DNA from: Granulicella sp.
Lineage (GTDB): Bacteria > Acidobacteriota > Terriglobia > Terriglobales > Acidobacteriaceae
Direction: 5' to 3'
Length of the DNA stretch: 64,000 nucleotides
Assembly: GCA_027450185.1 (NCBI GenBank)
Contig: DAIDKF010000001.1
Location: forward strand, 1 to 64,000
Both the position numbers and the translations under genes were made by a program. A model generated the notes under the pieces. That model saw only the letters and a list, made by a program, of their open reading frames with translations, searched no databases and was not told the DNA's origin. This document shows, in pieces, positions 76 through 2,032 of the stretch (the stretch's first letter is position 1; each line of letters starts with the position of its first letter).

Positions 76-220
76 GAGCCGGATGCGGGAAGACGGTCCG
101 TCCGGTTCGATGAGCGGGGTGTGAAAACGGGACATGATGCGGATATTGAGGCACCGGCAACCGAAAGGGCCGGGAACGGATAGGCCCCATCTAAAGAACC
201 GCGTCACACCTCGACTCTAC
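76..220 (+). ncRNA. Group II intron 3' end (domain V, domain VI and 3' splice boundary); the rest of the intron would lie left of the window
   Basis: DV-like GAGCCGGATGCGGGAAGACGGTCCGTCCGGTTC (76-108) with AGC triad and GAGCCGGA/TCCGGTTC stem. DVI-like stem GAG-CGGGGTGTG (112-123) pairs with CACACCTCG-[A]-CTC (205-217), leaving A214 bulged 7 nt from the ...CTCTAC end at 220. Distal DV loop is non-canonical. Confidence 0.68.
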
Positions 221-1890
221 TGAAGGCGCTGCGATTGCTGTTTTGGGCTGACAAGGTTGCCCGGCAGATGCTCATCGCTGATTGAGGTTGGCGGTATCGC
301 CGGGCGGGCGGCCTTGAGGGTGTGCTCACGGGGTGCAGGCAGTTTTTGTGCATGGCTTTCCTGCGTACGCTGTTTGCGCAGAGATGGAACATGAGGATGA
401 TGGTTCGCCGGGACGTTGCTACCCCGGTGAGGCGCCGAGCGCAGCGGCCACCTGCTGGAAGGCCGGAAGAAACGGGAACGATGCGGGCAGATGCAGCACC
501 ATGCGCCGCACCGAAACCATGACGCGGGCGCGCAGCTTCAGCAGCCGTTCGCGCAGCGTCCATACCTGGGCGCGGGAGCAGTTGCTGCCCGCGGCGCATA
601 GGCGCAACTCCTGCATCAGCACGTAAGCCGCGGCGGTCAGCAGCACGCGGAACTGGTTGGCCCAGAAGCTGCTGCAACTGGTGCGGTCGATCTCCAACGC
701 GTGCAGTTCCTTGATCCGGTTCTCGATCTCGCCGCGCTGGCAGTAGACCTCTTCGTAGATCCACTGCGGCGTCTGCTGTAGGTTGGTGATGACGAAGCGC
801 GGATTATCTTTCGGCTCTTTGCCGTCGGCGCGGACCACCTCGGCCTTGAAGATCATGCGGCGTTCGCGCGGCCAGGTGTTGGCTGCGTAGCTCGTTTCGC
901 TGTAGACGTGTTCGGTCTTGCCGGTCACTTCGGCGAGCACGCGTGCAACCTGCATCGCCGCTTCTGCCTCGCGCTGTAGTACCGCGTTGCTGGCCATTGC
1001 AACAACATATTCCAGACCAGGTTCGGCGTCCAGAAAGTCGAGCAACTCGGGATGCGCGAAGCCGCCATCGAGGCGAACCCGGATGCGAGCGCCCGGGAAG
1101 AAGTGGCGGACCATCATCAGCAGGCGGCGCAGAATCCCCACCGCTCCCACCGGCGCGGTCACGTTGCCGGGACGCAGCACGGCGGCGCACAGATACTGCT
1201 CGGCCTCGTCGTTGAAGCTGACAAAACCCATCACCGGAAGGTAGCACCAGCTATCGTAGTGGCCGTTGAAGAACGACATCTGCTGCGCGCCGTGCGTCGG
1301 ATCGTCGGTCGGATCGAGATCGAGGGTGACCAGCAGAGCACGGTTGCCTAGCCGCTTGGCATGGCGCTCGATCACGCTGGTTGCGAGCGTCTCGCCCATG
1401 CGGTAAAGCTGCTTGCGGTCCACCGCATTCTCAAAGCGCGACAGCGTAGGCTGCGAGGCCAGATCCAGGCCCGTCACCGGATCGCGGCCCAGCAGCATCT
1501 TGTGCACCGGATCGGCGCCGAGCCGCGCCGAGTCGTTGGCGTCCGCATAGCCGCACGCAATCGAGAACACGCGCTGCGCCAGCAACTCGTTGAGCGAGTG
1601 CTCCACCTTGCCTGCCTGCCGCTTGTCCTCCACGCATCCGGCCAGGCCTTCGATCAATCCATAGCGCCGCTCGGCGGCCTTCAGCAGGATCGCTCCTCCA
1701 TCGGAGGAGCCCTGCCGCTGATCGAACTTCAACACCGCTGGCTTGGCGAAAAGCTCGGGAAACAATAAACACTCTGTCATGGTAAAGTCGATCACGCGAT
1801 AGCCTCTTTTGTTGCCTCAAACACTGCCTCAACAACATGTTTGTAGCACAAGAGGCTTTCGCTTCTTCAGCCTTCACGAATTATCCGGGC
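221..1890 (-). mobile_element. IS1380-family insertion sequence, left terminal repeat interrupted
   Basis: Contains an IS1380-type transposase. Right end reads GCCCGGATAATTCGTGAAGGCTGAAGAAGC on the minus strand (ends ~1890); left side retains only TGAAGGC at 221. Confidence 0.7.
419..1795 (-). CDS. IS1380-family DDE transposase
   Basis: 458 aa ORF; QRQGSSDGGAILLKAAERRYGL, LVTLDLDPTDDPTHGAQQ and RGEIENRIKELH are IS1380-type motifs. Confidence 0.9.
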   Translation of the reverse strand: MIDFTMTECLLFPELFAKPAVLKFDQRQGSSDGGAILLKAAERRYGLIEGLAGCVEDKRQAGKVEHSLNELLAQRVFSIACGYADANDSARLGADPVHKMLLGRDPVTGLDLASQPTLSRFENAVDRKQLYRMGETLATSVIERHAKRLGNRALLVTLDLDPTDDPTHGAQQMSFFNGHYDSWCYLPVMGFVSFNDEAEQYLCAAVLRPGNVTAPVGAVGILRRLLMMVRHFFPGARIRVRLDGGFAHPELLDFLDAEPGLEYVVAMASNAVLQREAEAAMQVARVLAEVTGKTEHVYSETSYAANTWPRERRMIFKAEVVRADGKEPKDNPRFVITNLQQTPQWIYEEVYCQRGEIENRIKELHALEIDRTSCSSFWANQFRVLLTAAAYVLMQELRLCAAGSNCSRAQVWTLRERLLKLRARVMVSVRRMVLHLPASFPFLPAFQQVAAALGASPG

Positions 1891-2032
1891 TAATGACCTA
1901 CCCTACATCGGTGTGATCACATCTCCGTTTTTTGGACAGGCCGTGGCAGCAAACCCGCCACGCAGGATGCAGATCAGCGCCGAGTTTACCTTCTAACTGG
2001 ATGACCTGCATGGATGCGGGCTGACCTAACAA

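Follow-up and report, generated by a model that had tools for sequence, protein, structure and literature searches.

Group II introns nested in insertion sequences (ISs) have been described before. RmInt2 uses the inverted repeats of ISRm17 as its target (PMC5894124). RmInt1 resides in ISRm2011-2 and, as a control, it was located splitting this element in pRmeGR4b; the earlier note on the DNA studied here had named this pair as a precedent, and the nesting itself was confirmed, although RmInt2 in ISRm17 is the closer parallel. Group IIC introns have no IBS2 and need an upstream terminator or an attC stem-loop. The locus analyzed in this study very probably holds a group II intron of the IIB type that is retromobile, and the intron RNA is predicted to be directed at the conserved tip found in terminal repeats of the IS1380 family.

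The window (positions 1 to 64,000 of contig C1) comes from a MAG (G000) of 2.17 Mb in 145 contigs, which is 54% complete. It opens within an intron lying on the plus strand, whose domain IV end (1-72) is cut by the contig start at position 1. This is followed by domain V (76-108), domain VI with an extended stem (112-217), the predicted branch-point adenosine A214 (the 7th nt from the intron 3' end) and the junction with the 3' exon (220/221). Positions 74-220 match the Rfam model Intron_gpII with 28.9 bits (E 0.005), so that the intron end was missed at the gathering score of 40 and picked up in E-value mode; the same model gave 41.5 bits on a full sister intron, 80% identical, on contig C27 of the same genome. 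A consensus fold of the window intron and nine related introns (n = 10) contained 12 pairs with changes on both sides, with compensatory changes in the domain VI stem, and left A214 (column 149) unpaired. The position equivalent to 220 is the exact end in most of the best-matching related introns from this genome and its relatives. Moreover, an intron-free IS copy in a same-genus genome (G013:C4) shows a 99% match beginning exactly at position 221, and its end reads ctag CCTGCATTATTCA/TGAAGGCGCTGCG (a slash between sequences marks the insertion point). The boundary is therefore fixed independently of the RNA models, and the domains, the bulged A214 and the 3' end at 220 all lie where the earlier note had placed them.

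The intron is followed by an IS1380 element (221-1889, minus strand) devoid of the outer 13 nt of its left end. The inner part of the left terminal repeat (TGAAGGCGCTGCG, 221-233, plus strand) constitutes the 3' exon. The element carries an intact transposase ORF of 458 aa, antisense to the intron (419-1795, minus strand; NF033539, 3.4e-104; PF13701, 2.6e-126), and a right terminal repeat (1871-1889, plus strand; reverse complement CCCGGATAATTCGTGAAGG) adjoined by a CTAA target-site duplication (1890-1893, plus strand). The transposase, the terminal repeats and a 4-bp target duplication (YTAR) all place it in the IS1380 family. It interrupts a TonB-receptor-like gene, of which the last codons and the stop codon are found at 1890-1996 (plus strand), while the remainder is located on C27. 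The two IS ends differ: CCTGCATTATTCA is the outer 13 nt of the left end, and GCCCGGATAATTCG belongs to the transposase-start end. Further downstream, about 140 bp past the IS, there is a 40-bp palindrome composed of two IS1380 tips (GGATAATTCG-CTTCTTCAACCTTCA-CGAATTATCC, 2030-2068), MITE-like or a deletion remnant. Positions 2576-2621 resemble the 3' half of a tRNA (CGTTTCGTAATC...GGTTCAAGTCC...GGCTCCA), which was not called by ARAGORN and may be an attachment-site remnant.

The outer half of the left repeat is absent from the window, as the latter begins at the first base of C1. A search with a pattern combining the tip and GTGCG led to positions 652-669 of C27 (minus strand), where the 5' half of the intron occupies the end of the contig (669 to 1). 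This end reads ...AATCATC CTAA CCTGCATTATTCA/GTGTGCCGTGAAAGGCGC..., i.e. the CTAA duplication, the outer repeat half (657-669), the intron 5' end GTGTGCCGTG and the N-terminus of a reverse transcriptase (RT). Thus the 5' exon is the missing repeat half, as had been proposed, but it reads CCTGCATTATTCA and not the predicted GCCCGGATAATTCG, since the two IS ends differ; the exon GATAATTCG that had been expected was not seen beside any of the introns studied, and the pattern with both tip variants gave the true one. Pattern matches in viral contigs were not introns, and many two-mismatch matches across the class were ordinary genes. C27 covers 656 nt of the intron, up to RT codon 50. The intron begins with GTGTG (C27:656), a 5' end of the anticipated GTGYG type, and the RT start codon and first 50 codons lie on the same strand, also as foreseen. 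The stretch scores 109 bits against Rfam group-II-D1D4-4 (RF02003), a domain I-IV scaffold; its identity to the 5' part of the sister intron is 82%, and that of the 3' part in the window to the sister 3' part is 80%. CTAA is present on both sides of the IS with its intron, and excision of the IS, the intron and one CTAA restores an open frame ending in FDVFNHPNDLPYIGVITSPFFGQAVAANPPRRMQISAEFTF and a stop codon (a TonB-receptor C-terminus). The uninterrupted ortholog in G013 (a single 830-aa frame) is 80% identical over the 71-aa end (E 4e-38), therefore C27 and C1 are joined through the intron. Judging from the sister length, approximately 1.1 kb of the intron would lie unassembled between them.

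The complete sister intron (1996 nt, RT of 442-444 aa) is located on C27 (locus L006, 6915-8910, minus strand), ~6 kb from the first intron and on the same strand. It lies within or next to a gene of the cytochrome c type, at a site (GATGGAGTG/AATC) unrelated to IS1380. Its RT contains only the RVT_1 and GIIM domains and no endonuclease domain. It is 30% identical to the RmInt1 IEP versus 49-64% to other plasmid introns, and on these pairwise identities a class D (RmInt1-like) protein is ruled out; the sister RT is likely a class E candidate. In the window copy, the evidence for an RT consists of the N-terminal 50 codons in the 5' half, and the window holds no C-terminal part. Positions 1-57 are unlike the RT C-terminus found there in sister introns, and only the last ~15 nt of 1-72 (CCTTGTCCGAGAG) match them. 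With the 3' part of its domain IV altered, the window copy may have lost the capacity to produce a full RT, and its mobility may rely on a sister copy. This region contains a minus-strand ORF (MDQHEETMVVELG...) that starts at ~39, is preceded by a ribosome-site-like GGAG and continues beyond the contig start; a 20-nt match links its leader to that of an IS110-like ORF (L252, G176:C515). An IS110 insertion as the source of positions 1-57 was considered and set aside, the evidence for it being this 20-nt leader match.

The target specificity of the intron was analyzed in an alignment of 28 related introns (5' parts), each taken together with its own exons. For EBS1, tested on the 16 introns with distinct IBS1, one standout column gave 5.06 of 6 pairs against a permutation maximum of 3.73 (0 of 2000 permutations), and EBS2 gave 3.60 of 4 pairs against 2.47 when shuffled (0 of 5000), these counts being optimistic owing to the kinship of the introns, even with the EBS1 set limited to distinct IBS1. 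EBS3 pairs with the first base of the 3' exon in 22 of 23 introns. Hence, the EBS/IBS test suggested in the earlier note revealed strong pairing that covaries with the exons well beyond permutation. As EBS1 and EBS2 are each supported, together with a distinct EBS3 that pairs with +1, the intron RNA is of the IIB type. In the window intron, all three are fully paired: EBS1 TGAAT with ATTCA (-5 to -1), EBS2 AGGT with ACCT (-14 to -11) and EBS3 A with T221 (+1, IBS3). The tip across the site reads A-CCTGCATTATTCA/T, and the insertion lies between repeat nt 13 and 14. In the sister intron, EBS1 is CACTC and faces GAGTG; within one genome, therefore, the EBS1 difference between two introns follows their sites. 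A set of 114 IS1380 tips, taken from 80 related loci and the two local copies, was compared with the window intron: 106 are fully complementary to its EBS1 (G-U allowed), and 112 form at least 3 of the 4 EBS2 pairs. The adenine at -1 is present in 8 of 8 occupied versus 60 of 114 empty tips; counted by genome this is 5 of 5 (p 0.06), and a preference for A at -1 is not pressed.

Outside this genome, the same position of the tip is occupied by related introns in at least five Acidobacteriota genomes: G120 (four copies), G328, G659, G749 and G119. In the first four of these, the introns have the same 5' end as the window intron. The introns of G328 and G749 are decayed, and that of G659 shows imperfect EBS1 pairing and no EBS2 pairing. 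In G119, the full intron (L219, 3032-5028; G119:C24) resides in a ~48-bp MITE-like element (CTAG-CCCGCATTTCTCACC...GGCGAGATATGCGGG-CTAG), inserted between nt 13 and 14 of CTAG CCCGCATTTCTCA/CC, with an inverted partner 18 nt past the 3' end (2 mismatches in 17). In its tips, this element resembles an IS1380 relative in G127 that is more distant (CTAGCCCGGATTTCTCACC), and the EBSs (TGAGAT, GGGC and G) have covaried with this different tip. In G120, the copies lie at four contig ends, their EBSs falling beyond these ends, and an unoccupied tip (CCCGGATTATTCA/TGAAGC) is also present; the empty sites in G013 and G120 indicate precise insertion without target duplication.

Such recurrence could also arise if intron-bearing IS1380 copies transposed as a unit, the intron being a passenger of IS movement instead of retrohoming repeatedly. 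The matching CTAA duplication that flanks the intron-bearing IS in the window fits this explanation, and so do the four G120 copies, which share 120 identical intron nucleotides at sites with different duplications. However, the identical G120 introns occur in two tip sequences (GGATAATTCA in three copies and GGATTATTCA in one), which requires at least two insertion events, ~2 kb separates the tip from the inner repeat, and the G119 intron is found in another IS1380-type tip with a covaried EBS1. We consider joint transposition unlikely as the source of the pattern. Even less probable, and disfavored, is a one-off ectopic insertion that hit the IS tip by chance. The second intron of the same genome, ~6 kb off on C27, does occupy an unrelated site with a different EBS1, and many members of the lineage are inserted elsewhere, but the same tip position is used in six genomes, the three pairings are exact and almost all IS1380 tips are compatible. 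Finally, a misassembly or a chance resemblance with no intron across the repeat, conceivable for a window that starts at a contig end of a 54% complete MAG, is refuted by the independent 5' half with its matching tip and duplication, the restored ortholog and the empty sites.

Insertion is precise, empty sites exist, the pairings covary, and the intron recurs across genomes and on two IS1380-type tips. For the IS1380-targeting intron, the following route is proposed. EBS1 TGAAU, EBS2 AGGU and EBS3 A would pair with ATTCA, ACCT and T of the tip, and the RNA would reverse splice into the sense strand at repeat nt 13/14. An endonuclease-less RT would complete the insertion, probably primed at the replication fork; both this retrohoming and the primer use are our inference. 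The 3' end of the TonB-receptor gene houses the IS, so that the intron would be transcribed from this gene. In an IS end that holds the intron, the 13-bp tip and the remainder of the repeat are ~2 kb apart, which probably leaves this end disabled for transposition.

Elsewhere in the lineage, introns have inserted at unrelated sites, some of them attC-like, and the idea that every member targets terminal repeats was rejected: apart from the introns in IS1380 tips, only that of G119 has a nearby inverted partner of its 5' exon. G127 contains ORF-less introns of 489-721 nt in attC-like sequences (CCTAACCCGYGCGTGCA/CCCGG; L122 5275-5763, L123 4963-5683 and L125 4651-5372), with nearly identical EBS1 loops, which are probably mobilized in trans. 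In G145, a dispersed repeat of the CCACGAAGG type harbors two introns (L216 and L218; TATCCACGAAGGRRCA/CGAAG). Short palindromes bounded by IS1380 tips are present at L204 (~1500-1550, G276:C38) and L209 (G541:C101), and the interior of the G276 palindrome (GTGCGCCGTGGAAAGGCGCAC) resembles the first 20 nt of the intron.

A broader reading, offered tentatively and somewhat short of an even chance, is that an intron lineage has specialized on the IS1380-family terminal repeat, that it retargets as the tips diverge, and that in Acidobacteriota it thereby restrains IS1380 broadly or travels with it as a hitchhiker. Retargeting would be reflected in EBS1 TGAAT on ATTCA/T tips and TGAGA on TCTCA/C tips. 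The tip would be read by RNA pairing, and the IS could presumably not change it without losing mobility. The core of an IS end is a renewable, dispersed, non-essential and host-tolerated target, from which the IS may be unable to mutate away. An intron with such a target offers a natural setting in which to ask if retroelements limit the spread of ISs, together with a testable EBS set aimed at IS1380 tips. With IS ends as targets previously exemplified by one rhizobial case, their use in a second IS family and a further phylum, by an endonuclease-less intron that is not RmInt1-like, suggests that such ends may serve introns as a general refuge.

Compared with the known systems, the intron shares with RmInt2 in ISRm17 the use of IS terminal inverted repeats as a target, and both kinds of IS end are apparently used, as seen in G120. 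It differs in the IS family (IS1380), in the Acidobacteriota host and in the sister RT, which is 30% identical to the IEP of RmInt1, a reported relative of RmInt2 that served for this comparison. With RmInt1 in ISRm2011-2 (IS630 family) it has in common the nesting in an IS, an endonuclease-less RT and EBS/IBS-guided insertion, whereas the RmInt1 target is the ISRm2011-2 body between the ends, not a terminal repeat, and its RT belongs to class D. The small endonuclease-less RT, and the attC-like sites of some close relatives (G127), are reminiscent of group IIC and IIC-attC introns, but the supported EBS2/IBS2 pairing sets the intron apart and rules out group IIC membership. We found no report of IS1380 as a group II intron target in the open-access literature. 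The use of IS inverted repeats as an intron target is already known from RmInt2 and ISRm17; what is new is a non-class-D, IIB-type intron on an IS1380 tip.
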